Source: Chloroflexota bacterium (GTDB lineage: Bacteria > Chloroflexota > Anaerolineae > Anaerolineales > Villigracilaceae). Taken from it: a stretch of DNA of 64,000 nucleotides. The notes beneath the pieces are model-generated. The model made no database searches. It was given only the letters and a program-made list of their open reading frames with translations, and had not been told where the DNA came from. Each line of letters opens with the position of its first letter. Position 1 is the first letter of the stretch. Positions 6,892 to 50,527 of the stretch are shown here, piece by piece. Made by a program: the position numbers and the translations under genes. The stretch lies in NCBI GenBank assembly GCA_026390015.1, contig JAPLGS010000107.1, forward strand, positions 62,001-126,000, given 5' to 3'.

Positions 6892-6912
6892 TTGGTTTGT
6901 CGGTGAGGTTTC

Positions 6913-7059
6913 AAGGTTTGTTATTGTAATTTCGGAGTTTGTTATTGTAATTTCAAGGTTTGTTATTGTAATTTCAAGGTTTGTTATTGTAATTTCAAGG
7001 TTTGTTATTGTAATTTCGGAGTTTGTTATTGTAATTTCGGGGTTTGTTGGCTTAATTTT
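6913..7059. repeat. 21-bp tandem repeat, seven units
   Basis: Seven head-to-tail units of 21 bp start at 6913, 6934, 6955, 6976, 6997, 7018 and 7039. The core GTTTGTTATTGTAATTTC is identical in the first six. The first bases of each unit alternate between AAG and GGA, and the seventh unit is degenerate. There are no spacers, so it is not a CRISPR array. The reading frame stays open on the plus strand (RFVIVIS per unit), but no start signal or flanking homology supports a protein. Confidence 0.9.
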
Positions 7060-7375: not shown

Positions 7376-8119
7376 CTACTTTTCGGCTTGGTTAAATGTA
7401 TTCGCACAGGCTGAATCAGGAGGAACATCTATTGCAGTTCCGAGTTTTTGGACGATCAATTCAAGGTTGACGAACGTATCTCCGACCAAAACATAACGCA
7501 GTAGTCTGCCGTTTTCATCCTTATCTGAAACATCCGCAATCAGGCTGACATCCTTTCCATAGACAAGTTTGGAATTGAATTGGCTGGCACTTTTGCCTGT
7601 AAATTTATTTTCAGGAGCCGCAACGCCGATATAACGAACCACATAGATAAGACCATCGATAAGGATTTTGACAGTGTTACCGTCAACCACTTCCACCACC
7701 CTGCCAGTTTGCGCGGAATTATTGGGAATGCAGCTTTTATTGACAAGTACTTCAGGTGTTAGCTCTTGCGTAAGCGTGATCACAACCATCTCTGTACTGG
7801 AAGTGAGCGCAAATGCAGGAGTTGCAGTTTCTAAGATCTGTGTTGATATTAAGAGGGGCGTATTTGTTGGCAGGAATGTGGGCGTACTCTTAAAGATCAG
7901 AGGAGTCGTGGTCCATTGGGGAGTATTGTTTAGAGTATCAGCATGGGTTGATGAAGGCTTTGGCAAAATCATCGAAACCGCATCAATTAATGATTTGTCG
8001 CCAGGCAGATTTGCAAGCAGATATATGAACACAAAGAGCATGCCAACCAGCAAAAGGCTGACGAGCACTATCAATTTATTGATAATATCCTGTTCCCAAA
8101 AATCACGAAGGCGTTTCAT
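7376..8119 (-). CDS. Membrane-anchored thermonuclease-fold (SNase-like) protein, probably inactive
   Basis: A 247-residue protein with one N-terminal TM anchor (about residues 16-36), a Thr/Pro/Ser-rich linker (about 50-130) and a C-terminal staphylococcal-nuclease-like domain (GRVVEVVDGNTVKI to the end). Set against the usual VDGDT...RLIGIDTPE pattern, the calcium-ligand Asp is Asn148 and the Asp-Thr pair is Ala167-Ala168. The two catalytic arginines (Arg162, Arg205) and Glu170 remain. The domain ends at QAEK, short of the usual GRGLW end. Calcium binding is therefore probably lost (inference). Start supported by AAGGAA 5 bp upstream. It follows the giant multiheme gene by 101 bp on the same strand. 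Confidence 0.8.
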   Translation of the reverse strand: MKRLRDFWEQDIINKLIVLVSLLLVGMLFVFIYLLANLPGDKSLIDAVSMILPKPSSTHADTLNNTPQWTTTPLIFKSTPTFLPTNTPLLISTQILETATPAFALTSSTEMVVITLTQELTPEVLVNKSCIPNNSAQTGRVVEVVDGNTVKILIDGLIYVVRYIGVAAPENKFTGKSASQFNSKLVYGKDVSLIADVSDKDENGRLLRYVLVGDTFVNLELIVQKLGTAIDVPPDSACANTFNQAEK

Positions 8120-8220: not shown

Positions 8221-11200
8221 TTATGGATAAGAAAGACCATTGTGGTTTTCGGTGTGGCATGATAAGTAACACGTGCCAGATCCAACAGTATTCCCAGGCA
8301 CATAACCCGTCTGGCCATTAGTAACTATTGGCAGGCTTATATGGCTTGTGTCGAAGTTGACCAAGTGATCTTTCTCGCTGCCGTGTGTATCATGACAGTC
8401 ATAGCAGGAATACTTGTTATGTGTACTGTGTCTTGTAAACCTGGTGTCATTCGCGCTGTTCACATAGGTCTGATAAGAATGGCATTGGAAGCACAATTCA
8501 CCAGTTGAATGGGTAATATCGGCGTTGTTATCATCTGTAATGTAATCTGCCGTACCATTCAAAATGTGCAGGCGCGGAGAGCCATGCGGAGCGTTGGTTA
8601 TTGCGTTTGCATTTGCATGACAGTCTGTGCAATAAACACGGCTGGTGACCGAACAAGGGGCACCACCGCAGGAAGAGTTGGCAGCCCAGGTATTCGCCGG
8701 CCAATTAGTATTTTTACCAGCAGCCTGCACTGGGTGAAAACTTGCAGCATTGGGGCTAAATTCGAGTGCAAGGTCACGCGAATCACTTACACCCAATTTA
8801 GCCAGCCCGGTCGCGGAATAATTTGGCAAAGTGGTGTAGCTTGAATGACACTTTAAACAAAGCTGATATTCATTTGCAGATTTGTTTAGGAAGTTAAATC
8901 TTATCAACGCGCCAGCCGCATCATAAACGGGTTGAACCCCTGTTACGCCAATATTCTGAGGCTTGGTATTGGGAGCTATGCTCGTACCTGTAGAATCTCC
9001 GTGTGGCCCATGGCAATCACCGCATTCCACGTGACGATTTGCGTTGCCGAACTGTGATCCTAAAACTTCATCGGCAGTATGCGGGCCATTGGTCTGGTTA
9101 ACGTTATGTTGGAAGTAACTGGTGGCTGTATTGGAAGGGTATGTGTTGAAAGCGGTTTGAACATTTATTCCCGGGCCGCCAGTGGTGTGGCAATAGTAAC
9201 AGAATCTTTCCTCCTGGCGCATTGGGTCAATCGGGTTCGCGTCACTGACAAATTTCCAGGGTGAAAGCAAGTTCATTTTGTTCGATCCATGACCGCTGTC
9301 GTGGCAATCTAAACAGGAGCCGCGGAACGTGCTGACGAGCGTGTTATGCATCGCAGCCGACCACAATGTGCCATCTAAGGATGGCGCAAGTTTGAGGTCA
9401 CTAAAGGGAGTCTGGTTTCCAGCTTGACCGTCACCATCATGGCAGGAAATGCAGAAGTTTTCGTAATCCGCCGGGTCATCTATGGCATTGAGAGCGAAAT
9501 CAAGCGTATAAACAGTAGCGGGGACATCCGCATCTAACAGGCGGACTTTCCCAGCCATGTGCTGGCTCATTTCGTGGCAGACCTGGCAATCGCCGTCGGT
9601 GATCAGGTCACTGCCGCTGACATGGTGTGAGGCGCGGGTGAAATCTCCGCCGGTTGCGCCTACAATTTGACGGCGCAGTGTACCACGCCCAAGGTCCTGC
9701 ACTGTGGAGTGGCACGCGCGGCAACTCGCCATGAAGCCATCCCCTGTGAGGGGTAATGAATCAGCGCTGTGCTTATGGCAGCTCACACAATCTGACTGGC
9801 TATAGTTCAAAACACCATTATGATTCGCTCCACCTGAATGGCTGACCATCGGGCTACCAGGGTTGGAAGGATTTACATGGCAGGTTACACATAAACGGTT
9901 GGCTGTTGCGCTGACTCCATCGTCATATGAATTTAGGCCGGTGGTGGCTGTAAAAATAATAGGGCCGGTTGTCACGATAGGGTTGGTATTTGATGTCACC
10001 TGTACAAACGGACGTATTGAAAATAAATTAGCGCTGCCATGCGGTTCATGACATTGCGTGCATAACAACTCAAAAGGTGCCTCCACCCGCAAGCCTGCCC
10101 AATCTTTGTTCGAATGAGTGGATACGACCACATTCCCATCGCTGTGACAACTTAGACAGAATACATTGCCAGACAGCGGAGACGCGATCATCTCGGGGTT
10201 TTGGGCTGTATGCGTACGATGGCAGGCGGCGCATATATCGGTTGTAGCCGCGTAGCCGCCATGCGGATCCTGGTTCTTGGCGACGACGGTGATCGTGGCC
10301 ACATCCTGACCGGTTCCCACTGAATTCACCGCGCTGGCTGTGATGGTATGCGTACCGGCTGTTAGATTGCTGTAACCAAAACTTGACCCCGTCCCAAAAA
10401 GACCATCCTTACTTGAAGTCCATCGAATGGTGGAACTGATATCCCCATTGACGGGGATCAACGCCTGACCGGTAAATTGGATCTTGGCTCCCTGGGAAAA
10501 ACTGGAACCATCGATCGGAAATAGAATGGTCACAAGCGGCGCGGAGGCAAGGCTATTGTCGCTGGTCGCCTGGCCTGCACTCGCGGCAGCGCTGACTGCC
10601 GTATCCCCTACCGCCTGCACACGCCAGTAATAAGTTGTGTTCGGTAGTAACCCTGCGGCGTTATAGATGATGGCATTGGCCGCGGTTATATTTACCAATG
10701 AGAAATTATTGTTATCGTTGGATCGAAGAATATAAAAGGCGGTCTCGTTAACCGAGTTATCAGCCCAGTTTAAGGTCATGGATGTCGCTGCGACACCGGT
10801 AAAGTTCAAGGCAGACGGCGCGGCCACTGAAGCAGACATGCTGGCATTCCCTTCAACGACCGCATATACCTTCCAATAATTATTGGCGCTATTCAACAAG
10901 CCTGTTGCGTTAAAGATTGTGGTGTTTGCCGTGACTTGACCAAAGTAGGTATAGTTATTTCCATCGATGGAGGTGTAAATACTAAAACCGTCTTCGCCTG
11001 TGGAGTTGTCGATCCAATTCAAGGTAACAGATGATTTGGTCACATTGGACAAACTCAAATTAGCGGGTGAAGCAAGCGGAACAAAAGCGGGGGTAAAAGT
11101 ATAGATCGTATTGAGCAAAGGTTTCGCAGCTAAAGTCGTTGCATCGGTCACGGTGCTCCACGCAGGGCAGGCGGCAGAACTTTGAGCGGAGATAAAGCTG

Positions 11201-14200
11201 GTATTTGATGTACCCGTTATCCCGATGGAAGCGTTCGCTCCTAGATTCGCATTATTGGGGTAGTACATGAAATCCACCACACCGGTACTCTCGTGCAAAA
11301 CAACACGCGTACTGATACGGCTGACGCTGGCGGTATTCCACTGAAAATTCCACCATTCAAAAGTAAACGTGCGCGTTGGGACAGTGCCCGTTGTTGTATA
11401 AGAAATGGCGCTCCCTGCCGCAGCACCTCCGAGGTCATCCCATAATGGCGCAAGGATCGGACGGGCGGCTGTGTTATCGGCATTGCCTGCGCTGTTATTG
11501 AGAGCATTCAACGGCAGGGAATTTCCGCCGGGCGCGTTGAACGATAGCCAGCCATTTGAACTGACATACACATTGGTATAGCGGGTACCCATATACCAGA
11601 ATTCAAAACCGAGGGGAATGGGGATGGAAACAGCATTATCAGCCAACAGAGACGGAACGCTTGTGCCGCCCAACTGGGCGCTATAAGCAGAAGTGCCACA
11701 ACTGGGCGTATACGCATTCAGCGTTGATCCCGCCATGTCTGTCAAAATACCCACGTTTTCGCCGGAGACGGGAGTGATACCCATTCCAGGTATCGGCAGA
11801 ATCGGCCCGGCATAATTCATCGCATCGAATGCCTGGATCAAGCCATAACCAAAAAATGGATCATGTCCAGGAGCACCCAGATCGAGTGCCGAACCAAACA
11901 ATGCGGATGTCAGGTAATTTTTATCTATAAACTGCGGCTGGCTGGCCAATAAAACAGCAACCCCTGAAACATGCGCAGAAGACATGGATGTACCGGAGGC
12001 CTCTGAATATGTGCCGCCGGGGAATGTGGATCTGACCGCGCTGCCTGGCGCAGATAAACTGATATGATTCCCGTACGAAGAAGATGCCGACAGCGCCAGA
12101 CCGTTATCAACTGAACTGACCGCGATAACTCCCTTATAACCAGCCGGGTAATAAGTTGTATTGTCGCCTTTGTTACCGCTTGCGGCGACAACGATCACAT
12201 TATGCGCGAGAGCATAATCAATGGCGTTCCGTAAAATATCACCGGAGCCCGTGCCGCCAAAGCCAAGATTGATCACGCGCGCGCCCATATCAACCGCGTA
12301 CACGATCCCTTCAGCCACCTTTGCATGAGTGCCGTATCCGCTGTTATCTAAAACTTTAACAGGCAGGATGCGCGCATTTGGCGCAATGCCGGCAATGCCA
12401 ATTCCATTATTACTTTGGGCGCCGATGATGCCCGCCAGGTGCGTGCCGTGCCCCTGATCATCATTGGCGTTATTATTCCCGGCCACCATGTTCCAGCCCT
12501 GCCAATCATCCACGTACCCATTGCTGTCATCGTCAACGCCATTGGTGCTTTTATCCGCGCCGTTTGCATCCAATCCGATTTCAGCAGGATTTCGCCAAAT
12601 GGCACTGGCCAGATCGGGATGGGTCACGTCCACGCCGGTGTCAATAACCGCAACCAATACCTGCGGCATGTTTGGGAACGCATCCCAAGCTCGAGGCGCT
12701 TGAATGGCAGTCAGGTTGGTTTGAGCAGAAAACTCGGGGTCATCCGGTGTGCCCGCCAGAGTTACCAAATAATTGGGGTCAGCGAATTCAACAGTGCTGG
12801 TATTTTGTAACGCAGCCAAAACAGAATCAAGTTGTGACGCATCAACATTTACGATCAGGCTTTCGAGAGAACCGATCGGAGTGCTATCGGTTGTTAAGTT
12901 GATACCAAGGCTTTCGATGACTTGAACGGCTTCTTCACGATTTTGCGGATCGATCTTAACCACAATTTGATTCTCGACATGGGCAGATTCCAACTGTTGA
13001 GAGATGCTCAGTTCTGTCAAAGCCGCATCAGGCGTCGGGCTGGCTGATGCGCCAGCTTCCGTCGCAGGCGCCAAAGGTGGTAATCCATAGAGTACGCGCT
13101 GGGCAGATTCGACTTGATCCACAGGCGGCAAGACAACGCTATTTCCAGTGGTGATAATATGTTCAACATAATCAACCGCGCTTTCGCAGCCCGCCTGGAA
13201 ATTCTTTGAAATAAATTTCCAGCGCAGTGGTTTTCTTTCTTTTAGTGTGGCGCGCATGGCGCTGCTGGTACAACCGGGGCCGGCGTGATAATTTGCCGCT
13301 GAGAGTTTCCAGACCTCCTGCCATTCCATCTGGCTGACAGCCGCCTTGCCCGTTAGATTTTTGGCGATCTGATCGATCTGATGAAAATTTGCCTTGAGCG
13401 CCGCGGCAAACACAGGGATGCTTTTTTCAGTGACTTCAAGATCGATCCTGTTGGGGCAATTGGCGCAGTCAGCGCGCACTTCGATCAAAGTGGAGCCGCG
13501 TAAATAGGCGCGCTCAGAAGAAGAGATGCTCAGGTAATCTTTTTTACAGTTTTTATTATCCAGTTTATTCTGGCATATTTTTTTGAAGTAAAGGTTGTTC
13601 CACATCAAAAGGGTATCAGATCCATTTTCAGTAAGTTGACCAATACCATATTCAGGCGGAACATGCGTCGACGCCTGCGGCCACATCTGGCTTTCCTGGA
13701 TCAGCAAATTCTTAAACATATAAACAGGGATATTTTCTTCCACTGCCGCATTGAAGATGGCATCATCATAACGATTTTGCCAGATGAAAACATAAGGCTG
13801 CGCCGCGGTCATTCCGCATGGGCTGGCATACCCGTTTGGAAGTAAGGAGCTGCCATTACACGCGCTGACATCCACATAGCCGGCGGCGATCAATTTGCCG
13901 GCAAGGTACGTCAACGGCAGATTCATTTGCAGGTCCGCAGCAGTGTCTGGAATGTCTAGCCACGAATAGTCTGAGGTTAGTGTATTCGCAGTTGGAAGAA
14001 TCGTATTTAATGGAGTGGCTGTTGGAACTATTTTGGAAAGACTGTATTCACCATTCTGCCAGGCTATAAATAACTCATTTCCACAAGATTGTAAAATCTC
14101 GTCTGAAACAGGCTCGCCATCATGGGTTACATTAATGGTGCAGGCAGTCTGGGCGGTAATCTTATGAATCAGATTCCATTGCGTGAGGGCATAAACAGAA

Positions 14201-14316
14201 GCGCCTGCTTGAGTATAACTACTGAATAATAAGCCCAATCCCAGGATAACAAATATAGCTGTCCTGGAAACAGACTTGCAGATCTTTAATGTTTTCCTAA
14301 TTAATAAATGGAACAC
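8221..14316 (-). CDS. Giant secreted fusion: lytic-transglycosylase-like, subtilisin protease and 16-heme cytochrome
   Basis: A 2031-residue protein. Order: signal peptide (about 1-42); lysozyme/SLT-like domain (about 195-400, candidate catalytic Glu208 in LLIQESQMWPQAS and the motif YGIGQLTENG); I9-type propeptide (about 447-520); S8 subtilisin domain (about 540-805) with the triad Asp559 (VAVIDTGVD), His623 (GHGTHLAG), Ser777 (GTSMSSAHV) and oxyanion Asn715; beta-sandwich region with GFEFWYMGTRY (about 860-1070); two FN3 domains (about 1085-1250); an Ig-like domain (about 1255-1345); then 15 CXXCH motifs and a final CX3CH (CYLSCH, Cys2016) from residue 1362 on. All catalytic residues look intact. 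It is last in a run of minus-strand cytochrome genes. Inferred role: a wall-spanning or surface electron carrier that remodels peptidoglycan and may be cleaved by its own protease. I know of no characterised protein with this architecture. Confidence 0.92.
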   Translation of the reverse strand: MFHLLIRKTLKICKSVSRTAIFVILGLGLLFSSYTQAGASVYALTQWNLIHKITAQTACTINVTHDGEPVSDEILQSCGNELFIAWQNGEYSLSKIVPTATPLNTILPTANTLTSDYSWLDIPDTAADLQMNLPLTYLAGKLIAAGYVDVSACNGSSLLPNGYASPCGMTAAQPYVFIWQNRYDDAIFNAAVEENIPVYMFKNLLIQESQMWPQASTHVPPEYGIGQLTENGSDTLLMWNNLYFKKICQNKLDNKNCKKDYLSISSSERAYLRGSTLIEVRADCANCPNRIDLEVTEKSIPVFAAALKANFHQIDQIAKNLTGKAAVSQMEWQEVWKLSAANYHAGPGCTSSAMRATLKERKPLRWKFISKNFQAGCESAVDYVEHIITTGNSVVLPPVDQVESAQRVLYGLPPLAPATEAGASASPTPDAALTELSISQQLESAHVENQIVVKIDPQNREEAVQVIESLGINLTTDSTPIGSLESLIVNVDASQLDSVLAALQNTSTVEFADPNYLVTLAGTPDDPEFSAQTNLTAIQAPRAWDAFPNMPQVLVAVIDTGVDVTHPDLASAIWRNPAEIGLDANGADKSTNGVDDDSNGYVDDWQGWNMVAGNNNANDDQGHGTHLAGIIGAQSNNGIGIAGIAPNARILPVKVLDNSGYGTHAKVAEGIVYAVDMGARVINLGFGGTGSGDILRNAIDYALAHNVIVVAASGNKGDNTTYYPAGYKGVIAVSSVDNGLALSASSSYGNHISLSAPGSAVRSTFPGGTYSEASGTSMSSAHVSGVAVLLASQPQFIDKNYLTSALFGSALDLGAPGHDPFFGYGLIQAFDAMNYAGPILPIPGMGITPVSGENVGILTDMAGSTLNAYTPSCGTSAYSAQLGGTSVPSLLADNAVSIPIPLGFEFWYMGTRYTNVYVSSNGWLSFNAPGGNSLPLNALNNSAGNADNTAARPILAPLWDDLGGAAAGSAISYTTTGTVPTRTFTFEWWNFQWNTASVSRISTRVVLHESTGVVDFMYYPNNANLGANASIGITGTSNTSFISAQSSAACPAWSTVTDATTLAAKPLLNTIYTFTPAFVPLASPANLSLSNVTKSSVTLNWIDNSTGEDGFSIYTSIDGNNYTYFGQVTANTTIFNATGLLNSANNYWKVYAVVEGNASMSASVAAPSALNFTGVAATSMTLNWADNSVNETAFYILRSNDNNNFSLVNITAANAIIYNAAGLLPNTTYYWRVQAVGDTAVSAAASAGQATSDNSLASAPLVTILFPIDGSSFSQGAKIQFTGQALIPVNGDISSTIRWTSSKDGLFGTGSSFGYSNLTAGTHTITASAVNSVGTGQDVATITVVAKNQDPHGGYAATTDICAACHRTHTAQNPEMIASPLSGNVFCLSCHSDGNVVVSTHSNKDWAGLRVEAPFELLCTQCHEPHGSANLFSIRPFVQVTSNTNPIVTTGPIIFTATTGLNSYDDGVSATANRLCVTCHVNPSNPGSPMVSHSGGANHNGVLNYSQSDCVSCHKHSADSLPLTGDGFMASCRACHSTVQDLGRGTLRRQIVGATGGDFTRASHHVSGSDLITDGDCQVCHEMSQHMAGKVRLLDADVPATVYTLDFALNAIDDPADYENFCISCHDGDGQAGNQTPFSDLKLAPSLDGTLWSAAMHNTLVSTFRGSCLDCHDSGHGSNKMNLLSPWKFVSDANPIDPMRQEERFCYYCHTTGGPGINVQTAFNTYPSNTATSYFQHNVNQTNGPHTADEVLGSQFGNANRHVECGDCHGPHGDSTGTSIAPNTKPQNIGVTGVQPVYDAAGALIRFNFLNKSANEYQLCLKCHSSYTTLPNYSATGLAKLGVSDSRDLALEFSPNAASFHPVQAAGKNTNWPANTWAANSSCGGAPCSVTSRVYCTDCHANANAITNAPHGSPRLHILNGTADYITDDNNADITHSTGELCFQCHSYQTYVNSANDTRFTRHSTHNKYSCYDCHDTHGSEKDHLVNFDTSHISLPIVTNGQTGYVPGNTVGSGTCYLSCHTENHNGLSYP

Positions 14317-14413: not shown

Positions 14414-14992
14414 TCATTTTTGATTCGATCCCAATTCAAATTCATTAAGCAGTTCATGGAGGTGATCTATTTTCGCGCGGATCTCGGACAGATCTGTTAA
14501 TTCTGGATGTTTTTCTGAGAATCTTGAAATACTCTGCCATATTTCAATCTCAGTGTTTTTAATATTGTTCATCCGCAGGTTTAATCCAGCCAGCATTTCG
14601 GAGCCGATCTCTTCCAGTTCTTTCAACTCATCATTGTTTCGGAATTTAACCGTTCCATTGAGTTTTCCACGGGCAACATCCTTCAGTACCATACCAAGGC
14701 GATATGCAGGCCCGGCAATTCGATGAGTGTAGTAGAGCAGGAAGACCGAGCAAACCGCCAGCCCAAGCAGGTTGATACCCACCAAGATCGGAAGCAATAA
14801 TTCCATTGTGTTCTTTATGCGCAGATGTGCTTGAAAATAAGCCATTGTGAGATCACGGTTGGCAAAAATATAGAATAATATTCCTGAAAAGACCAACAAA
14901 ATACAAAAAATAAATTCCAATCCCATAAGCAGGCGCGGCTGGGAGGTGTTCAAGAGAAAATACCGGTGGCGTTTATAGGGTTTTTGATTCAT
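14414..14992 (-). CDS. Two-TM membrane protein with HAMP-like domain
   Basis: 192 residues. Two TM helices (about 22-45 and 66-88) flank a short extracytoplasmic loop. A HAMP-like linker follows (HRIAGPAYRLGMVLKDVARG...FRNNDELKELEEIGSEML, about 90-140), then a coiled C-terminal tail without kinase, cyclase or methyl-accepting modules. Short TM-HAMP proteins of this type often sit beside multiheme cytochrome genes. Here it lies 7 bp from the pentaheme lipoprotein gene and just before the giant gene, so the three probably share a transcript. Role unknown; it may sense or assemble the complex. Confidence 0.75.
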   Translation of the reverse strand: MNQKPYKRHRYFLLNTSQPRLLMGLEFIFCILLVFSGILFYIFANRDLTMAYFQAHLRIKNTMELLLPILVGINLLGLAVCSVFLLYYTHRIAGPAYRLGMVLKDVARGKLNGTVKFRNNDELKELEEIGSEMLAGLNLRMNNIKNTEIEIWQSISRFSEKHPELTDLSEIRAKIDHLHELLNEFELGSNQK

Positions 14993-14999
14993 AATGCGC

Positions 15000-15506
15000 T
15001 CATTTCAAAAATTCTTTATGGCAGGAGACGCACAATGCTCCATCACCTGATTTTGTAAGCAGGTACTCATATGGGGCAGTGTGGCTTCTATGACAGGTGC
15101 TGGTGCAGGTCATCATCTGGCTGGTATTGGGATCAATAATTCCGTCTCCGACGGGATGTGTGTTTCCCAATGCTTCTGTTGTATGGCACTCGTAGCAAAG
15201 ATCAATTTCGCTTTGCAAAGACAGCCGTTGGACGGGATCTGTGTGATATTGCTTATGACAATCAAGACATAATCCATTCGCATATGGGGCGTGCTTGAAC
15301 ACTTCTTCCGCAGATCTCAATTCTTGATGACAACCGCTTTCAAAACACGGATTGACCGTTTGGGAAATTACAGAATCAGTTGTAACTGAGTCAACATCTG
15401 CGGGCAGTATTTGGGCTGCCGTACAAGCCGTCAGGACGAGGAGCGGTCCCAGGGTCAGAATACGCAATACGAAGATGTAGATGGTTTTATTCACCGCGCA
15501 TTCCAT
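15000..15506 (-). CDS. Pentaheme c-type cytochrome lipoprotein
   Basis: 168 residues. The N-terminus is a lipoprotein signal with lipobox LTAC. Five heme-attachment motifs follow: CFESGCH (Cx4CH), CLDCH, CYECH, CTSTCH (Cx3CH) and CVSCH. Two of the five are non-standard spacings. The Cx4CH and Cx3CH motifs keep the final CH and lie at regular distance from the others, so they are probably real heme sites. The protein should sit on the outer face of the membrane and could pass electrons between the quinol oxidase side and the secreted cytochromes. The ATG at 15506 has no clear ribosome site; a GTG four codons in is an alternative. Confidence 0.82.
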   Translation of the reverse strand: MECAVNKTIYIFVLRILTLGPLLVLTACTAAQILPADVDSVTTDSVISQTVNPCFESGCHQELRSAEEVFKHAPYANGLCLDCHKQYHTDPVQRLSLQSEIDLCYECHTTEALGNTHPVGDGIIDPNTSQMMTCTSTCHRSHTAPYEYLLTKSGDGALCVSCHKEFLK

Positions 15507-15619: not shown

Positions 15620-16573
15620 TTACTTCTGATGACAGACTTCGCAGGTGGCGCGGTTTGTGAGGCGCAGGAGTGCGCTATCAGTCGCGGAAGTATTGCCAGG
15701 TAAAGCACCAGAGTTTGCATGACCCGTCATCACTGCGGAAGATCCGTGCGGAAGATGGCAGGTCTGGCAGACGACAGCATTCGCTGTCCCGGTCTGAGCG
15801 AGAGGCAATTTGAGTCCGCCAAAACCAACAATTTCAGGGTTGACATTGGTACCGCCAGGGCCGGTGTAGCTATAGGACATATCAACGCGGTGGGTATAAC
15901 CACCCGTGGCAACCATTGCGAGGGCAGAGCCTGAACCGGCAGTTGTCTGATGGTAGGAGCTATGGCAGGCAGCGCAAACAGCGCTTTGACCAGCGCCCCA
16001 TTGCTCGGTATCGTAGGATTTGGTCGCACCTTCATCTACTTGGGCAACATTCACAGCCACGCCGTTCACGAAGGCATTGATAATACGGTAGTTGGGTGAT
16101 CCGTGTGGATCGTGGCAGGAGGCGCAGTTCATGTTACCGCCAGCCAGGTTGGCTGTAAGACCACGGTTGACACCATTACCCCAGGCCGCCGCTGTAGTTT
16201 CCTGTACGGCATGATTGGAGGTTGTGGCAACTCCTTTGTAGAAGTTGAAGCCGCCGGCCAGCAGAGGGGCATTGATTAATGTGTTGGCATCGCCGGTTGT
16301 ATCGGTTGGATTTCGGCCTTCCAGCCAGACACCATCGATAACATTGGAATCCGCGCCAGTGCCGGTGGTTCCATGACAGGTTGTGCATAGTGCGTAAGTG
16401 CTGTTGAGGATTAACAGGTTCGGGCCGGTGGCTGTGTGGGTACGATGACAACCGGCGCAAGCGTCGGTTGTGGGTGTAAAACCACCATGCGGGCCGCCAT
16501 TGGCAGAAGCCATTGTTGTTAAGGTCAGGGCAGAAACAAGGGCTACTGCCAAAACGATTAAGAATTTTTTCAT
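15620..16573 (-). CDS. Secreted hexaheme c-type cytochrome
   Basis: 317 residues after choosing the ATG at 16573, which has AGGAGA 7 bp upstream and opens a clear signal peptide (MKKFLIVLAVALVSALTLT, cleavage near ASANGG). Six CXXCH motifs: CAGCH, CTTCH, CASCH, CAACH, CQTCH and CEVCH. The N-terminal block PHGGFTPTTDACAGCHRTH is nearly the same as the start of the heme region in the giant fusion protein (PHGGYAATTDICAACHRTH). Long low-complexity loops separate the hemes. It has its own 169-bp upstream gap and a hairpin behind it, so it may be transcribed separately and strongly. Likely an extracytoplasmic electron carrier. Confidence 0.88.
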   Translation of the reverse strand: MKKFLIVLAVALVSALTLTTMASANGGPHGGFTPTTDACAGCHRTHTATGPNLLILNSTYALCTTCHGTTGTGADSNVIDGVWLEGRNPTDTTGDANTLINAPLLAGGFNFYKGVATTSNHAVQETTAAAWGNGVNRGLTANLAGGNMNCASCHDPHGSPNYRIINAFVNGVAVNVAQVDEGATKSYDTEQWGAGQSAVCAACHSSYHQTTAGSGSALAMVATGGYTHRVDMSYSYTGPGGTNVNPEIVGFGGLKLPLAQTGTANAVVCQTCHLPHGSSAVMTGHANSGALPGNTSATDSALLRLTNRATCEVCHQK

Positions 16574-16742
16574 TAGACATTCTCCTAAATTCATGATTTG
16601 CATATTGCACTTAATATAGGTATACAACATGCACAGATTGCGCAAACTATGTTGACGAGGAACCTCCTTACAAAAGAAAATTCGAATTGTTGTTGATTAA
16701 GCAATGTGAGCAATAGCCTGCCCGCACTGCCGTATGCAATCG

Positions 16743-17960
16743 TTAATAAGACCAAACCTGAACGCGGTTATTCTCGCGATCTACGATATAAATAATATTG
16801 GTACCGAACAACACTACATCATTCGGATAATTGAATTGCCCGTCATCCACGCCCAGATCACCAAAGGCATATAGGAATTCCGGTTGATCGCCGGAGACGC
16901 CATAGACCTTTACATTCTGCCCAACAGCATCCACAATAAAAAGACGATTCCTGTCGTCCAAATATGCGCCGCGCGGCAAGCTGACTGCGCCTTCGCCGGT
17001 GCCGCTGCCAAAAAAATATTGGAATTTTTGTGTAGCATCCCAAACGGAGATGCGGGCATTGTTTCCATCAATTGAATAATATCGGCCTCTGGAATCCACC
17101 AAAGCATCATTGGGATAGAGGAACTGTCCATCGCCTTCGCCATAAGAGCCAAAGGTGGTGAATGTTGGAGAAAAATCTGTCCAGTTTTCCGTGCTGGTTA
17201 CAGAAGCGGGAAATTCAATGATGCTGCTTTTCTCACTGACCACGTTGGTAACCAGCATCCTGCCATCCGCAGTAATAGTAAGCCCCAAAGGTGACCAGCC
17301 ATCGTGTTTGGGAACCGGGAGAGAAACCCAGTCCGTTGCCCCGGCAGGCTGATACCAGGCGCCCTCTTGAAAAATATTGTAGAGATATTTTGTGCCTTGC
17401 GGCAAACCGCCCAACTGACTGGAGATATAGGCACTGAGGGTTAAGTTTGGAGCGATGATGGTGTCGAGATACTCACCATCGCCGGTATAGATAAAGATGG
17501 CATGTTGAAGACGATCTGTCACATACACACGCCCGCTGGCATCTACTGCAAGATAAACAGGAGAACGTTCACCGGGGCTGGTGTTGGGCGGCATAAATTC
17601 CTTGAGCAGTCTTCCGCTATCCGCTTCGATGATCTTAATCAGGCGGTCTCCGCCGGTTTCAGCGACATACAACTTCTTTCCATCCGGCGAAACCGCCGCC
17701 CCCACCGGCAAGTTGACGCCATAAACCGAATATAAATAATGCGGAGGATAATTGATCTCCACCGGCAGTGACATCAACTCAGGCAATGGAGCTGGTTTAA
17801 ATAAATAGCGCAAAAATAATACGGCGCAGAAACAGCTTAAGAACAGGAGCAGGAGTAAAAGCAACAGCAACCGGCGGCGGCGTTTTTCTTCCTTTTCAGG
17901 TTCTTCCACAGAATGTTCAAGAGCGATATCTTCAGACTCAGGAATGGAATTTGTAGTCAT
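16743..17960 (-). CDS. Membrane-anchored NHL-repeat beta-propeller protein
   Basis: 405 residues. A charged cytoplasmic tail (about 1-30, ending in EEKRRRR) and one TM helix (about 31-52) precede a beta-propeller of NHL-type blades. Typical blade pieces are VGAAVSPDGKKLYVAETG, VYLAVDASGRVYVTDRL, DGQFLYPNDALVDSRGRYY and NYPNDVVLFGTNIIYIVDR. NHL propellers are protein-interaction platforms and no active-site residues are evident. It starts 2 bp after the TPR gene, so the two are surely co-transcribed. The propeller faces outside and may hold the multiheme proteins together or take part in their maturation (inference). Confidence 0.82.
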   Translation of the reverse strand: MTTNSIPESEDIALEHSVEEPEKEEKRRRRLLLLLLLLLFLSCFCAVLFLRYLFKPAPLPELMSLPVEINYPPHYLYSVYGVNLPVGAAVSPDGKKLYVAETGGDRLIKIIEADSGRLLKEFMPPNTSPGERSPVYLAVDASGRVYVTDRLQHAIFIYTGDGEYLDTIIAPNLTLSAYISSQLGGLPQGTKYLYNIFQEGAWYQPAGATDWVSLPVPKHDGWSPLGLTITADGRMLVTNVVSEKSSIIEFPASVTSTENWTDFSPTFTTFGSYGEGDGQFLYPNDALVDSRGRYYSIDGNNARISVWDATQKFQYFFGSGTGEGAVSLPRGAYLDDRNRLFIVDAVGQNVKVYGVSGDQPEFLYAFGDLGVDDGQFNYPNDVVLFGTNIIYIVDRENNRVQVWSY

Positions 17961-17962
17961 AA

Positions 17963-18913
17963 TTAACCTTGAGCCTTTAGCGCAGCTTCGATACGCCCCT
18001 GCGCCTGTTGAATTGAAAAATTATTGGGGTCAAGCTGGGCCGCGATCTTAATAGTATTCAACGCATCATCCAGGCGGTTTAGTTGCTCGTAAGTTAACGA
18101 CAGACCAAAATAAAGCGGGGCGAAGTCTGGCAGTCCTTTTCTTGCAGATTCAAGATATTTCTGCGCGGTCTTATAATCTTTGATGGAAAAGGCCTGCATT
18201 CCGCGCGCGTAATCAGCGTGATCAGGCTTGTCAAGTGATGTGTAACTTTTGATCATGCTGGCATAGGCTTCGGTAAAATCGGGAACAAACTGCACTGCTT
18301 TATGAAAAAACTCAATTGCTTTTTCATGTTCATTCATTGCCTGAGTAGACATGCCCGCCTGATAGAGGGCATCGGCATCTGTGGAATTAATTTGCAGCGC
18401 AGATTCAAGTGCAGGAAGGGCCTTCTCTGGTTGACTCAATAGGTTATAATTTTCGCCCAGAAAATAATAAGCCGTCTGTAAAGCGGTATCGCTCATCGCC
18501 ATGGGGCTGTCTTTACGGAGTTCGATGAATTTTTCCAAAGGCTCAATAGCCATTTGCGATTGTCCGGAACGTGTATAAGTGATCCCTGAGATCAGGAGCG
18601 CGCCCGTGTTTTCAGGAAAGGTGATCAATACCTGATCGGTTTGTTCAATGGCCTGGGAATACAATCCCTTGCCCAGATAAAATTCAGCCAATGCCACGCG
18701 CGCCTGCGGGTCTTCGGGGTTATCACGTACAGCGATCTCAAGCTGGTCAATGCTAATATCCAGCGGAGATTTATCGCCCACGCGCACGTAACGATCATTG
18801 TAGTAATAGCCAAAAAACATTAAAGCGATCACAGCAAAAGCCAGACCGGCGGTCCAGATGTATCGTATCAATTCACGGCTGCGAATATTATTCAAACGCT
18901 CAAGAAATTTCAT
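17963..18913 (-). CDS. Membrane-anchored TPR protein
   Basis: 316 residues. One TM helix (about 20-40) is followed by a run of tetratricopeptide repeats from about residue 50 to the end, for example NPEDPQARVALAEFYLGKGL, DADALYQAGMSTQAMNEHEK and FAPLYFGLSLTYEQLNRLDD. TPR membrane proteins are common partners in cytochrome c maturation (CcmH/NrfG-like) and in large complexes. It lies 24 bp after the NapC-like gene and 2 bp before the NHL gene, which points to assembly or scaffolding of this electron-transfer complex (inference). Confidence 0.85.
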   Translation of the reverse strand: MKFLERLNNIRSRELIRYIWTAGLAFAVIALMFFGYYYNDRYVRVGDKSPLDISIDQLEIAVRDNPEDPQARVALAEFYLGKGLYSQAIEQTDQVLITFPENTGALLISGITYTRSGQSQMAIEPLEKFIELRKDSPMAMSDTALQTAYYFLGENYNLLSQPEKALPALESALQINSTDADALYQAGMSTQAMNEHEKAIEFFHKAVQFVPDFTEAYASMIKSYTSLDKPDHADYARGMQAFSIKDYKTAQKYLESARKGLPDFAPLYFGLSLTYEQLNRLDDALNTIKIAAQLDPNNFSIQQAQGRIEAALKAQG

Positions 18914-18937: not shown

Positions 18938-20443
18938 CTACGGATTACCCACGATGCCGCCAGGATGGCAGCGGCTACATAAAACATCCTGATGGCAGGT
19001 ATAACAAACCTGACCACCACGCGCACGGTATTCCTCTGCATGCGTAAAGAGCATATTTTCCGGATGGGAAAGATTATGGCAGGCGCTATTATTACAGAAA
19101 GACTGCCCATGACAGTTGTAGCACTCCTGTTTTTCTTCTTCCTTAACAGAGCGATGGTCAACCGTCCAGCGAAAATCTGCGTGTGATTCTGGAAGACTGC
19201 CGACGATCACCGGTGCTTCAACCAACAGATCATTGCCCCGTCCGACGATTGGAACTGTATGGCACAGGTTACACTCCCCGCTGATAGTCTCTCCATTTGA
19301 CTGGCCCTCGATGACGACATGTTTGTCGTCATGACAACGGAAACAACCCCAAGAAGGAGTATGGCGTTCGTTGTTTGGGTTCGTCTCCCAATTCAAATTC
19401 ATAAATGGGAAATTGGTATTCGAGTACATATTTTTAAGTTCTGCTATTGCAGCAGTTATTATTTTTTCCTTCTCGGTTTTAGATACCGACGCGATGGTTT
19501 GATCAGCATAATATTTAGCCAATCCATCCATGGCAACAAAAGCATCTGCCTCTGAAGAATAAGACACCTGCAACAACTCAACTGCCTTGGCGCGAATAAA
19601 AGGCAGATCACGCGAAATTAGACCATCAGAAATAGCCTTATCCACAGCTTGTTCGGGGTAGGGAATGTAATGAGCCGTACGATTATGACAATCAATACAA
19701 TCCAGTTTGCGAATGTTCCCCTCAGCGCGGGCTTTTTCCACAAAAGCAACCTGTCCCATACCCACCAAATCACGCAAAAAATATTCCTTTAAAGAACCAT
19801 CCGGCTCGCGGACGCCCACCCACGCCATCACTTGTCTTTGCTCATCCAATGCGATGTAAAAAACTTCACTGCTAACATGCCAGTGGATGCCGTCACCGAT
19901 CGCGCCGCTGCTGGTCTGCTTGCCGCCCATTTTTAATATTAATGTGGTTTGTACCAAAGTATTCGTTTCATCATCATCGTAATGACGAATGGTCTTAACA
20001 ATATTATCCTTGAACGTGGTTGGCGCATGACAGCCTTCACACGTTTCACGGGCCGGGCGCAAATTTTGAACAGGGCTCTTGATGGGGCGGGAATAGTCAC
20101 CTGTGATCTCGCCGACCAATTGTCGTGATCCGTCGATCTTCGATTGAATGAACGAAACCGCTCCCGGCCCAATATGACATTGCGCACATTCTACCTTTGC
20201 ATGCGGAGAAGCCTGATAGCGCACCCATTGCGGGTCCATGGAATGGCAAATCGTTCCACAAAACTCGGAGCTCTCACTGTACACAAAGGCTTGTACCCCG
20301 CCAACCAGCAATCCGAGCGCGATAACGATTACGGCCAAAATACCAAGGGACAGTTTTATTCTATGAGAACGCAGGCTCAGGTCGATGGTGATGGTCGGCC
20401 AGCCTTTTTTGATTCTTTCACGGATGGATTTTATAATGCCCAT
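18938..20443 (-). CDS. NapC/NirT-like membrane-anchored decaheme cytochrome c
   Basis: 501 residues from the ATG at 20443. AAGGAAG lies 9 bp upstream and the start is 1 bp after the previous stop. One TM helix (about residues 33-55) is followed by a NapC/NrfH-like start with FCGTICHSM, in which a Cx3CH heme has a nearby Met. Nine further motifs follow: CAQCH, CEGCH, CIDCH, CFRCH, CNLCH, CYNCH, CNNSACH (Cx4CH), CYTCH and CSRCH, so ten potential hemes. NapC/NrfH proteins take electrons from menaquinol and hand them to periplasmic cytochromes. The C-terminal extension, with its cluster of paired CXXCH motifs, is larger than in the tetraheme family. Translationally coupled to the cytochrome b gene. 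Confidence 0.87.
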   Translation of the reverse strand: MGIIKSIRERIKKGWPTITIDLSLRSHRIKLSLGILAVIVIALGLLVGGVQAFVYSESSEFCGTICHSMDPQWVRYQASPHAKVECAQCHIGPGAVSFIQSKIDGSRQLVGEITGDYSRPIKSPVQNLRPARETCEGCHAPTTFKDNIVKTIRHYDDDETNTLVQTTLILKMGGKQTSSGAIGDGIHWHVSSEVFYIALDEQRQVMAWVGVREPDGSLKEYFLRDLVGMGQVAFVEKARAEGNIRKLDCIDCHNRTAHYIPYPEQAVDKAISDGLISRDLPFIRAKAVELLQVSYSSEADAFVAMDGLAKYYADQTIASVSKTEKEKIITAAIAELKNMYSNTNFPFMNLNWETNPNNERHTPSWGCFRCHDDKHVVIEGQSNGETISGECNLCHTVPIVGRGNDLLVEAPVIVGSLPESHADFRWTVDHRSVKEEEKQECYNCHGQSFCNNSACHNLSHPENMLFTHAEEYRARGGQVCYTCHQDVLCSRCHPGGIVGNP

Positions 20444-20444
20444 T

Positions 20445-21335
20445 TTATTGTATGCTTCCTTCGGTATTTTCTTCCAACACAACTTCTTCCACGGTTTCTT
20501 CTTCAGCATGGACCGCTTGCTCCGTGCCGATATTTTTATTAACATCCTCAAGCAAGATCTCGATCTCTAGCGGCCATCGTTTATTTTGAATCACAGCCGA
20601 AGCCTGTTCAAGGCAGGCAAGCTCAATTGGGTGGTCTTCTTTCATATTCTCAATGGTCATATTGCCATTGAAAATGCTTAGATTCACTTTCTTGATGACA
20701 GTATTGTAGAAATGCCAGGTCAGAATCGCAATCACCATCAGAATGGCTTGCCAGCGATGTATGACACGGCTAATGGGTATGATCCAGCCGGCAGGCAGGA
20801 TCAATGTCAACTGAACGGGAAACCACTGCATTATTCCAGTGACGCCCATGATGATCATGCCGCATACCAACGCCCAATATTCCGCTTTTTCTTCAAAGTT
20901 ATATCGATCAAATAGAGGGCGGCGAACAGCGAAACCAAGATTGAATTTGATCATTTGAATTGCATCTGTTACATCGCGCCAGGTGGGGAATATTTTTCCA
21001 AAACGACGATGGACAAAAACCTCATCAACAAAAATTGCGACGTGATAAAGCGCTAGAATGCCAAAGGAAAAAGCCGCAAAATGATGTATCAATCTGGAAG
21101 AATCAATGCCGCCCAACGCATTGAGGGTGAGGTCGCCGGCAAGCGTGTTGTAATAGGTTTGAGCAAGACCCGTTATTGCCAATGCAAAAAAAGAAAGGAT
21201 CAGGATGAAATGCTCAATACGTTGAGCCAGTGGAAACCGAACCACGTATCGTCTTCCCTCTGAATTAACTCTCAAACGCTTAACTGCCTCCAGCGCGTCA
21301 CGATAATAAATATATTGCTTCATTCTCGCAGCCAT
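20445..21335 (-). CDS. Cytochrome b (b561/formate dehydrogenase gamma-like) membrane subunit
   Basis: 296 residues with four main TM helices in the first 220 residues and a charged, Glu-rich tail. Candidate heme b ligands are His in QRIEHF, LIHHF, ALYHV, VIHRW and LTWHFY. The RFPLAQRIEHFILILSFFAL start is typical of the cytochrome b/b6-like family that also covers formate dehydrogenase gamma and Ni-Fe hydrogenase cytochrome b. Placed between two decaheme genes, it probably exchanges electrons between quinone and the heme c subunits. Two ATGs (21335 and 21323) are possible and neither is decisive. Confidence 0.87.
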   Translation of the reverse strand: MAARMKQYIYYRDALEAVKRLRVNSEGRRYVVRFPLAQRIEHFILILSFFALAITGLAQTYYNTLAGDLTLNALGGIDSSRLIHHFAAFSFGILALYHVAIFVDEVFVHRRFGKIFPTWRDVTDAIQMIKFNLGFAVRRPLFDRYNFEEKAEYWALVCGMIIMGVTGIMQWFPVQLTLILPAGWIIPISRVIHRWQAILMVIAILTWHFYNTVIKKVNLSIFNGNMTIENMKEDHPIELACLEQASAVIQNKRWPLEIEILLEDVNKNIGTEQAVHAEEETVEEVVLEENTEGSIQ

Positions 21336-21371: not shown

Positions 21372-22610
21372 TTACTTTCCTGTTTCCTGGGATTCGGATA
21401 TTTGCACAGATTTACTGAAACGTTTCTTCAATTTATCTGCCACACGGCGGCGGGCATCAATTACAATATACACAACGAATCCACCGATAAAGATCGGGAT
21501 AAAATACCCATAAAAGGCTGTGATCGCAAACAACAAAGGGGTAGTTTCCCAGGTTGAAGAATAATGACGTAGCCATGCCTGTGGGAATGTAATGCCAGCA
21601 TCAGGGTGACATTGTTGACAGGTCTTTTGCAGATTAGCTGGATACACAGATGACAATTCATTTTCAGGAGATTGAATATTATGAACACCATGACAGTCGT
21701 AACAAGTAGCTTTTGTGATTTTTAGATCGCCTGCTTTAAGTGAAGCCTCAACCGTGCGTCCATGAAAATCGTCAAGATAAGTCTGGAAGACATTCGCCGA
21801 GATATTGTATTTATCCATTAACTCTTTATCAGCATGACAATTTCCACACAAATTGATCGAGCCTGCCTTAAAATCAATATGATCTGGTCCTTCCACTTCA
21901 TGGCTGCCATGACAATTGTTACAGGTAGGCACATCAGGATTAGAATCCGCCTCGAGCGCCTGCCCATGAACACTGGTCTTGTAAGTACTGTAGACTGACT
22001 TGTGGCATTGACTGCAAATTTGAGCGATCTTTGTGCGCGGCTCATTCGGGGAGGTAATATTATGGCCGCCATGGCAATCGACACAGATCGGTGCAAAGCG
22101 ATTCCCGCGTTCCAACACGCGGGTGTGTTCACTGTCAGTTATTTCCTGAAATTTTCCCTGATGACATTTATGGCAGGATGAATTTATTTCGATGGCGATG
22201 GCGCGTTCATCAGGATAGGATGAGATGTCAAAGATCTGCGTACTTTGTCCACTCGCATCGAATATCTGCAAATGACATACATCACAAGATTGTGACTGTG
22301 AATTTTTGTGAGGATACTCCTGTTGAGCATCATGGCAGGACCGGCAGCCATCAAAATGATCGGAACCTTCATGCTCCTTAGGATCGTAATATAGAGAAAT
22401 TATCTTGCCATCAGCAAATCGCCCTGCCATTTCAGGGTTTGAATGGCAGCCAAGGCAATCTCCGGTTTGATGCGGGCTGCGTCTCGCGGGAGAGGCGGTT
22501 GGTGTCGGTTCCTGAGCAAGAACGGGCGCGGAAATCGCGCCGTCAAATAGAAACCATCCCAGAATGGCAACGCCAACCAGCAAGAATACATAAAAACGAT
22601 ATCGCATCAT
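21372..22610 (-). CDS. Decaheme c-type cytochrome with C-terminal membrane anchor
   Basis: 412 residues from the ATG at 22610. An N-terminal signal/anchor (about 5-28) leads into ten CXXCH motifs: CLGCH, CRSCH, CDVCH, CHKCH, CVDCH, CSQCH, CNNCH, CGNCH, CYDCH and CQQCH. A C-terminal TM helix follows (TPLLFAITAFYGYFIPIFIG...YIVID) and then a short basic cytoplasmic tail. This layout resembles the heme subunits of membrane quinol:cytochrome complexes. It is the first cytochrome gene in the run and is followed 36 bp later by cytochrome b, suggesting that the two form one complex. The start codon overlaps the stop of a small upstream frame (ATGA). Confidence 0.87.
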   Translation of the reverse strand: MMRYRFYVFLLVGVAILGWFLFDGAISAPVLAQEPTPTASPARRSPHQTGDCLGCHSNPEMAGRFADGKIISLYYDPKEHEGSDHFDGCRSCHDAQQEYPHKNSQSQSCDVCHLQIFDASGQSTQIFDISSYPDERAIAIEINSSCHKCHQGKFQEITDSEHTRVLERGNRFAPICVDCHGGHNITSPNEPRTKIAQICSQCHKSVYSTYKTSVHGQALEADSNPDVPTCNNCHGSHEVEGPDHIDFKAGSINLCGNCHADKELMDKYNISANVFQTYLDDFHGRTVEASLKAGDLKITKATCYDCHGVHNIQSPENELSSVYPANLQKTCQQCHPDAGITFPQAWLRHYSSTWETTPLLFAITAFYGYFIPIFIGGFVVYIVIDARRRVADKLKKRFSKSVQISESQETGK

Positions 22611-22882
22611 ACTTTCAACCGCGAATTTGAAAATGAGTGAATCAATCCCACCAGATTTCCGCTTAAGTAATCTGTAATTCCGCACTTGGAAAAGTCGAAT
22701 TTAAAGCGAATAATGGCCAGCGATTCTATTTGGATGGTTTCAGGATAATTTGTGGAATCGCTGTTAATCAAACGTGCATTAATCACATTCTTGTATTCAC
22801 TTAATACGCTTGCAATCACACCTGATAAAAGTAAGCAATGCGCCGATATCGGCATGGTGGGGAGTGATTGAATGGTTTCCAT
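22607..22882 (-). CDS. Possible small protein upstream of the decaheme gene
   Basis: A 91-codon frame from ATG 22882 (a GTG at 22957 would add 25 hydrophobic residues) ends in TGA overlapping the ATG of the decaheme gene. The 4-nt ATGA overlap and its position at the head of the run are the only support. No ribosome site or recognisable motif is visible. It could be a leader frame whose translation is coupled to the cytochrome, or chance. Confidence 0.3.
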   Translation of the reverse strand: METIQSLPTMPISAHCLLLSGVIASVLSEYKNVINARLINSDSTNYPETIQIESLAIIRFKFDFSKCGITDYLSGNLVGLIHSFSNSRLKV

Positions 22883-23049: not shown

Positions 23050-23694
23050 TTACAACTTGGGGGTTAAATTGTGCCGTACTGCATACGTTGCGGCTTCAGC
23101 TCGATTGTTATAATTCAATTTTTGTAATATATTTTTGATGTGATACTTAACTGTATTCTCACTTATATCCAACTGGGAAGCAATGGCTTTATTAGCAAGT
23201 CCCTGCCCAAGATACCCAAGTAATTCAACTTCGCGCACAGTCAGGTTTTCATCAAGCGCCTCGTTAAAAGTGCTTTGTTGAGCAACATAATTTATCAGCC
23301 TTGCTGTAATGGAACTTGATATTGGCGGTTCTCCCCTCTCAAATCCCTGTAACAATTTTATGAATTCGTCCGAATTCAGGCTTTTTAATAAATACCCTTT
23401 GGCGCCTGCGCGCAAGGCTTCAAAAAGTTTTTGGTCTTCCTGGGAAACGGTGAGCATCACTACTTTTATCTCAGGGAAAGCATCTGTAATTTTACGGGTA
23501 GCCTCTATCCCGTTCATAACCGGCATATCTATATCCATGAGGATCACGTCGGGCATTAATCTTCTGGCTTCGATGACAGCCTCCTGTCCATTGCTCGCCT
23601 CACCGAGCACCTGCATCCCGGCAGCTTTTAATAAACTGACAATTCCATCGCGGAATAATGCATGATCATCTACAACTAAAATACGCAATGACAT
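23050..23694 (-). CDS. NarL/FixJ-family response regulator
   Basis: 214 residues. A receiver domain (about 1-120) has the phospho-acceptor Asp54 (VILMDIDMP), the acidic pair Asp9-Asp10 and a conserved Lys near residue 104 (GAKGYLLKS). A LuxR-type helix-turn-helix (about 148-205) has LTVREVELLGYLGQGLANKA and DISENTVKYHIKNILQKL. The start overlaps the kinase stop by one base (TGATG), so the pair is translationally coupled. It most likely controls the adjacent cytochrome genes in response to the heme-bearing sensor (inference from position). Confidence 0.93.
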   Translation of the reverse strand: MSLRILVVDDHALFRDGIVSLLKAAGMQVLGEASNGQEAVIEARRLMPDVILMDIDMPVMNGIEATRKITDAFPEIKVVMLTVSQEDQKLFEALRAGAKGYLLKSLNSDEFIKLLQGFERGEPPISSSITARLINYVAQQSTFNEALDENLTVREVELLGYLGQGLANKAIASQLDISENTVKYHIKNILQKLNYNNRAEAATYAVRHNLTPKL

Positions 23695-50423: not shown

Positions 50424-50517
50424 GGGAGTGGTTAGGTCCCGGTGGGTCTCCTGGTCTTCAACACCTGTGGTGGGTCGCGTTGCGAGCCGCGGTGGGTTCG
50501 ACTCCCATCCACTCCCG
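50424..50517 (+). tRNA. selC: Selenocysteine tRNA (anticodon UCA)
   Basis: 94 nt. An 8-bp acceptor GGGAGTGG / CCACTCCC, T-arm GTGGGTTCGACTCCCAT (5-bp stem), anticodon stem CTGGT / ACCTG with one T-T mismatch, loop CTTCAAC with anticodon TCA, and a long GC-rich variable arm. The 8+5 bp acceptor-T stack and UCA are diagnostic of tRNA-Sec. Discriminator G, then CCT instead of CCA. The D-arm pairs less regularly than in E. coli (GG/CC and CCC/GGG with an internal loop). Possible promoter: TTGCGA at 50388 and TTATCC at 50410. No selA, selB, selD or selenoprotein gene was recognised in the window. Confidence 0.85.
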
Positions 50518-50527
50518 CCTATATTTG

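Follow-up and report, generated by a model that had tools for sequence, protein, structure and literature searches.

A Chloroflexota multiheme cytochrome fused to lytic-transglycosylase-like and subtilase domains at the end of a redox operon

Closest described systems

Multiheme cytochromes of very large size, joined to domains related to the cell envelope, have been described in anaerobic methanotrophic archaea (ANME) as MHC-A, -B and -C (Chadwick et al. 2022, PMC9012536). One ANME multiheme class was found to contain an N-terminal peptidase-M6-like domain, and MHC-A and -B have been suggested as the route for electrons across the S-layer (PMC9012536). In Geobacter, the subtilisin-like protease OzpA is linked to OmcZ, a cytochrome that is secreted and contains multiple hemes and Ig domains (PMC9473688, PMC11208441). 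In Thermincola, Gram-positive electron export through peptidoglycan is ascribed to the multiheme chain ImdcA-PdcA-CwcA-OcwA, and the pathway includes a hexaheme OmcS-like wall protein (PMC7911101). Large multiheme cytochromes of varying heme number, without porin-cytochrome complexes, were reported for Anaerolineales (PMC7399161). Here, a 64,000-nucleotide stretch of DNA from a Chloroflexota bacterium (contig JAPLGS010000107.1), hereafter the window, was found to contain a gene at 8221-14316 on the minus strand in which a lytic-transglycosylase-like (LT) domain, an S8 subtilase and a 16-heme tail are joined in one polypeptide.

The ANME proteins are archaeal and contain S-layer domains and C-terminal transmembrane helices in MHC-A and -B and a pectin-lyase-like domain in MHC-C; neither a lytic transglycosylase nor a subtilase is mentioned for them in the available text (PMC9012536), whereas the fusion protein is predicted to contain both. 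In contrast to MHC-A and -B, the layer concerned here would be peptidoglycan, and the fusion protein was found to contain neither an S-layer domain match (Pfam up to E 0.1, a level at which remote forms are possible) nor a C-terminal hydrophobic stretch in a hydropathy scan. OmcZ and OzpA are encoded by two separate genes, with 8 hemes and a CX14CH motif in OmcZ (PMC9473688, PMC11208441), whereas the present protein is one chain with a CX3CH motif, no CX14CH motif in its heme tail and an added LT domain. No similarity of its tail to OmcZ was detected, and none of the 28 PDB sequences that a 19-row tail profile matched up to E 10 was identified as OmcZ. In the Thermincola paper the word transglycosylase is absent and protease occurs only as an inhibitor in the methods, and no fused enzyme is mentioned in the available text (PMC7911101). 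The main text on Anaerolineales lacks the words peptidase, protease and fused (PMC7399161); the record title of one relative of the window (G139, L048) names the order Anaerolineales.

No LT-S8-multiheme fusion was found reported among the full-text literature matches listed, read as titles and abstract starts, a scope that mostly leaves out the subscription literature. The fusion protein is regarded here as an envelope-linked multiheme cytochrome with a set of enzymes not found reported, and its nearest precedents, as far as the available sources go, are the ANME envelope-domain multiheme cytochromes and Geobacter OzpA/OmcZ.

Architecture and conservation of the fusion protein

The fusion gene was found to form an intact open reading frame (ORF) of 2031 aa with a GTG start at 14316, a stop at 8221 and a GGAGG sequence seven bases 5′ of the start. 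A signal sequence at about residues 1-33 (14218-14316), the only above-threshold hydrophobic stretch of the protein in the hydropathy scan, was followed by the LT-like domain at residues 111-400 (13117-13986), a subtilase prodomain at residues 443-515 (12772-12990), the peptidase S8 domain at residues 553-825 (11842-12660), a variable linker region at residues 826-1345 (10282-11841) and the 16-heme tail at residues 1349-2031 (8224-10272), all on the minus strand. An earlier note, made from the letters of the DNA, had claimed a single polypeptide with all three parts, which is borne out by the intact frame and by the same build in other genomes; the signal peptide, Glu208, Asp559/His623/Ser777, 15 CXXCH motifs and one CX3CH motif that it named were all found in place. 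In the search of the full protein that it suggested, Pfam recovered S8, the prodomain, fn3 and Paired_CXXCH_1. The fusion is confirmed as more than a chance join, since the build recurs in other genomes.

The LT domain was not matched by the Pfam SLT model up to E 0.1, and a profile of 33 LT sequences matched no PDB sequence up to E 1. The AlphaFold2 (AF2) model of the domain reached a mean predicted local distance difference test (pLDDT) score of 90.5. In Foldseek the best rows were MltF (E 3.1e-3, probability 1.00), with none below E 0.001. In VIA-align the best row was again MltF (Z 15.0, root-mean-square deviation 2.5, 158 aligned), followed by MltC (Z 14.0), MltE (13.7), Slt (12.8) and goose lysozyme (10.2). 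The top 29 VIA-align rows were all lytic transglycosylases, by title or, for LtgA, by our own assumption that it is one. Because unrelated helical models may reach a Z of about 13, weight for the fold was placed on the uniform top of the list together with the catalytic Glu. Glu208 (alignment column E109) and eight Cys were invariant in all 33 aligned LT sequences, of which 13 belong to fused genes and the other 20 do not; these were 33 of the 37 family rows found. Lytic transglycosylases of the GH23 type contain a catalytic Glu in an ES pair, a downstream G-x-G-Q/H motif and a YNAG motif, and the ESQMWP..GIGQ and NYHAGPG sequences of the fusion protein were found to fit these. The domain is thus like MltF, MltE and Slt in predicted fold and catalytic Glu, and unlike them in the lack of a sequence match at the thresholds above, in the eight invariant Cys and in the fusion to S8 and hemes. 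Residues 111-400 are predicted to be a lytic-transglycosylase-like domain with the expected catalytic acid; since Pfam gave no SLT match, the label of an SLT-like wall-lytic domain, as first proposed, rests on the predicted fold and Glu208.

The Peptidase_S8 match (PF00082, residues 553-825) had an E-value of 5.9e-54, and the triad D559, H623 and S777 was complete; Asn715 was located by alignment. The prodomain was matched by the Fervidolysin_NPro-like model PF22148 (residues 443-515, E 6.6e-5, above its cut-off). The I9 propeptide of the earlier note stands as a prodomain preceding S8, and its type was revised to that of fervidolysin, the I9 model not being matched up to E 0.1. Among the fused S8 domains, Ser and His were present in 19/19 and Asp in all 18 that cover that part; the oxyanion Asn was kept in 17/19 and replaced in L052 and G793. 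In the S8 tree the fused domains were placed on one side of a branch and five unfused ones on the other (support 93/91; 95% of 200 bootstrap trees), the five being those met as matches and not a full sample. This tree had been rebuilt with G793 added and without a badly cut row of the window's own genome (branch 4.48; two label changes with it).

The linker region was found to contain two FN3 domains, recovered by Pfam as two fn3 stretches, and one Ig/PKD-like domain (PKD/Big_7 at 1260-1344, weak and below cut-off). The linkers between S8 and the hemes are the least conserved region across the family, and the protein of G007 lacks most of the region, with one Ig-like domain left. In the tail, the 15 CXXCH motifs span residues 1362-1971, followed by the CX3CH at 2016, the last motif ending at about 2021; Pfam found Paired_CXXCH_1 in five stretches. 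Twenty-two non-motif His were invariant among six 16-heme tails. Since these would suffice for bis-His ligation of 16 hemes, a carrier is expected rather than a reductase, and a reductase role is not favored on this reading of the sequence. A four-row tail profile gave no match to PDB sequences at E 0.01. The best matches of the 19-row profile were 7tfs_A (E 9.1e-8, titled 'Cytochrome c'), which we take to be OmcE, and 6r2q_A (E 9.9e-7, labelled cystathionine beta-synthase), presumably the MtrA chain of an MtrCAB complex; these matches center on the CXXCH motifs and serve as leads only.

Against the nearest relative, G139, the ratio of nonsynonymous to synonymous substitution (dN/dS) was 0.079 for LT and 0.112 for S8; the two halves of the heme region had 0.054 and 0.071, with high dS (3.0, 4.0). 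In the comparison with G016, no value could be computed for four of the eight dS. Selection against change in the LT, S8 and heme modules is supported by these values. The intact catalytic residues, which had been taken to speak against decay, were indeed kept across divergent relatives, with dN/dS at 0.05-0.11. Among the 16-heme proteins, the lowest identity to the window protein was 36% for LT, seen in G007, and 45% for prodomain plus S8, seen in G110.

The modules were found to differ in relatedness. LT and prodomain-S8 of the window are 83% and 80% identical to those of G139, and 38% and 51% to those of G022. Over the last four hemes (8224-8664, residues 1885-2031) the window is closer to G022 (63%) than to G139 (51%), and G139 and G016 are 75% alike. 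Since relatedness is reversed there, the distal heme tip was likely exchanged by recombination. In the LT tree, which has several long branches, the fused rows need two label changes, and 0/500 shuffles were as low, with the LT-heme row of G080 counted as fused and the separate LT of G102 as alone. G114 and G110 contig 534 were placed differently in the LT and S8 trees, which hints at an exchange of heads.

Distribution among relatives

At E 1e-40 a four-tail profile matched 18/152 same-family genomes, with 19 matches. Of the 19, 11 are single ORFs that run from LT through S8 to the hemes, and 7 of the other 8 were cut by contig ends. Sixteen hemes follow LT and S8 in six of these ORFs (the window, G016, G022, G007, G139 and G110 contig 360), eight hemes in four (G068, G075, G098 and G110 contig 534) and a 5-heme tail in one (G105). 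In four matches (G072, G073, G114, G138) S8 and hemes were present and the 5′ part lay beyond the contig; in G073 and G114, another contig has an LT reading frame that is cut off by its edge. G019 was found to contain LT and S8 at a contig edge and a tail fragment on a separate contig; it was rejected as a 16-heme member, the fragment being nearer the 8-heme tails (0.57-0.66) than the 16-heme tails (0.53-0.55). In G160 only a tail, cut by the contig edge, was present. In G102 (L088:1-4132) an 18-heme frame whose 5′ part is missing was followed by a short membrane gene like that of the 192-aa protein described below and by a separate LT gene; this locus is an unfused form of the LT-cytochrome link. 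The arrangement recurs within the family and is not fixed. The earlier note had held that close relatives always encoding the parts as separate genes would count against it, and this is not so in this family.

In a phylum sample 5/400 genomes matched the tail profile, and in a class sample 16/396 matched a wider tail profile, the window's own genome included in both. A scan of genome contigs with two short peptide patterns, from which the window's own record may be left out, returned 10 loci, all titled Chloroflexi or its sub-groups. A phage origin of the fusion gene was also considered, and the viral-contig scan yielded no relative. No LT was found in tail proteins outside the family. In the place of the enzyme heads, a 5-heme relative (G338) contained DUF11 repeats and a 19-heme protein (L055) a Laminin_G_3 domain. 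No S8 or LT profile match was found at E 1e-5 around L053, G177, L055, G338, L056 and G103. Among the class-sample matches, G542, G690 and G809 lack their 5′ end, and the architecture comparison leaves out G575 and G696. From these architectures the heme tail looks general among the class-sample matches, and the enzymes look like added heads.

Operon context and proposed function

The fusion gene was found to close a conserved same-strand operon, in which all genes lie on the minus strand. From its 5′ end, the operon contains a histidine kinase with HAMP, a Mcp40H-20-type sensor and two CXXCH motifs (23694-25148), followed by a response regulator with a LuxR-type output domain (23050-23694), a 10-heme c-type cytochrome with a C-terminal hydrophobic stretch (21372-22685), a cytochrome b561-like, formate dehydrogenase gamma-like subunit (20445-21335), a NapC/NrfH-like cytochrome with 10 heme motifs (18938-20551), a TPR protein (17963-18913) and an NHL-repeat protein (16743-17960), each of the last two with an N-terminal hydrophobic stretch, and a hexaheme c-type cytochrome with a signal-like N-terminus (15620-16645). 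Next come a 5-heme paired-CXXCH protein with a lipobox-like start, read by eye (15000-15506), and a 192-aa protein for which two hydrophobic stretches were found and Pfam gave no family at E 0.001 (14414-14992). An NHL and/or hexaheme-type gene was present upstream in 14/14 family genomes with readable upstream genes, on the contig that carries the tail or on the one that carries its LT head; the contig is cut there in G072, G102, G138 and G160. A NapC-like gene (E <1e-200) was found in 14 family genomes, 13 of them with the heme tail, and its co-occurrence with the tail (13/14 vs 5/138) gave a Fisher p of 5e-14, a test that ignores relatedness.

A 14-row family profile of the hexaheme neighbor matched 6r2q_A (E 1.4e-8) and OmcS 6ef8 (E 6.4e-8), the latter over most of the length of the protein and with high bias; as a single sequence it gave no OmcS or OmcE match up to E 1. 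It is a possible wire subunit. Omp85 was found in 0/8 genomes searched, the control being positive in 7/14 named genomes; since it was lacking in all eight, the cells look monoderm, without an outer membrane.

Downstream of the fusion gene, an SNase-like protein (PF00565) with an N-terminal hydrophobic stretch is encoded at 7376-8119 on the minus strand, and a tandem array of 6.7 copies of a 21-base unit (6909-7048) lies between this gene and an aldehyde ferredoxin oxidoreductase gene. The 192-aa gene is kept beside the 5-heme gene in G075, G098 and G080. The histidine kinase is a possible heme redox sensor and may control the operon. Promoter-like sites numbered 52 against 32.8 in shuffles and terminator-like sites 25 against 19.3, the latter near the shuffles, and neither was used as support. 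A selenocysteine tRNA gene was found elsewhere in the window, at 50424-50519.

The reading preferred here, with a probability of about one half, is that a bacterium lacking an outer membrane secretes this multiheme cytochrome to its wall, and that the operon ending in its gene serves extracellular electron transfer. Electrons from quinol would move by way of the cytochrome b, NapC-like and decaheme components to the small secreted cytochromes and from these to the 16-heme tail, which would carry them across the peptidoglycan or past it. At the export site, the N-terminal LT domain may loosen the glycan strands and thereby let the long chain pass through the wall or lodge in it. Enzymes of the S8 type usually cleave themselves after their prodomain, and the subtilase would likewise cut itself at its own. 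Because the prodomain sits between LT and S8, this single cleavage would part the LT head from S8 and the hemes, and wall cutting would stop; S8 may further trim the linkers or other products of the operon.

That the enzyme heads help the heme tail through the wall, as was first suggested, is plausible from the intact polypeptide, the conserved residues, the redox operon and the lack of Omp85, and is tempered by relatives in which parts are missing. A self-installing conduit, in which the chain gaps the peptidoglycan, sheds its LT head at the prodomain and leaves a 16-heme wire (8-heme in relatives) in the wall as base or tip for the hexaheme, possibly OmcS-like, cytochromes of the operon, is put forward tentatively, at well short of even odds.

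Several observations weigh against the reading of a wall-crossing cytochrome with its own enzymes. Relatives argue against a strict need for all three parts: G080 contains LT and 8 hemes without S8, and S8 with hemes and no LT, with its own start, was found in G346, G793 and L052 (the same DNA as a contig of G629; its 3′ end is cut). Neither enzyme is present in 10 tail proteins with their own start outside the family (one each in G177, L053, G786, G832, G808 and G670, two each in G637 and G547). Some relatives that retain the tail and the genes of the operon thus lack enzyme domains, and G103 contains operon-type genes without this heme tail. The AF2 model of the heme tail, with a pLDDT of 37.2, lends the idea of a wire no structural backing. 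The observation that speaks most strongly against a role in electron transfer alone comes from G032, a genome of another family in the same order (L046:6420-11293): its LT and S8 genes are separated by 2 bases, and the 15 kb of sequence examined there contains no heme gene, so the LT-S8 link is not specific to cytochromes and the two may serve another role. With LT and hemes, S8 and hemes, the separate LT of G102 and the heme-free pair of G032, each link can exist alone.

A doubtful explanation with a real chance of being right is that S8 acts mainly on its own chain, cutting the FN3/Ig linkers and freeing the tail as a released or polymerizing extracellular wire, with LT aiding export only. 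OzpA cuts an Ig-bearing C-terminal part off OmcZ in the available source (PMC9473688), and this role would be consistent with the poor conservation of the S8-heme linkers and with the S8-heme fusions that lack LT. The S8-free protein of G080 argues against it, as do the 10 outside-family tail proteins without S8, in whose surrounding DNA no S8 gene was found, and the tail's lack of an identified OmcZ match and of CX14CH; the alignment was read for a conserved cut site by eye only.

It is unlikely that LT and S8 are mainly a wall-remodelling, nutrient-scavenging or neighbor-lysing pair to which the heme tail was later added as an anchor, sensor or passenger. The adjoining heme-free genes of G032 would fit such a pair, as would an LT match outside the fusion in 22/24 other same-genus genomes; against this, the gene follows redox genes in 14/14 readable family genomes, and what the class-sample matches have in common is the heme tail rather than the enzymes.

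Rather improbable is a role of the enzyme domains as wall- or protein-binding modules that keep fold and residues while catalysis is unimportant. Their absence where the tail stays and the replaced oxyanion Asn in 2/19 fused S8 (L052, G793) would be expected from it, and the catalytic Glu invariant in 33/33, the S8 Ser and His in 19/19 and the dN/dS of about 0.08 (LT) and 0.11 (S8) argue the other way. An assembly join, or separate genes read as one frame, which the earlier note had regarded as fatal along with a frameshift, is refuted by independent assemblies even though the source is a draft genome of 177 contigs, for the S8-heme junction recurs in them and the same order appears each time as one open frame.

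The finding bears on how electrons pass through the walls of bacteria without an outer membrane, and hence without porin-cytochrome complexes. Under the reading of a secreted, wall-associated cytochrome, the family is a testable candidate: a heme wire with its own wall-cutting and protein-cutting domains, in an operon with a heme-sensor kinase. The relatives without one or both enzymes, or with 8 instead of 16 hemes, are a ready-made set for finding the role of each domain. If the self-installing conduit is true, it would be a wall-crossing counterpart of porin-cytochrome complexes.

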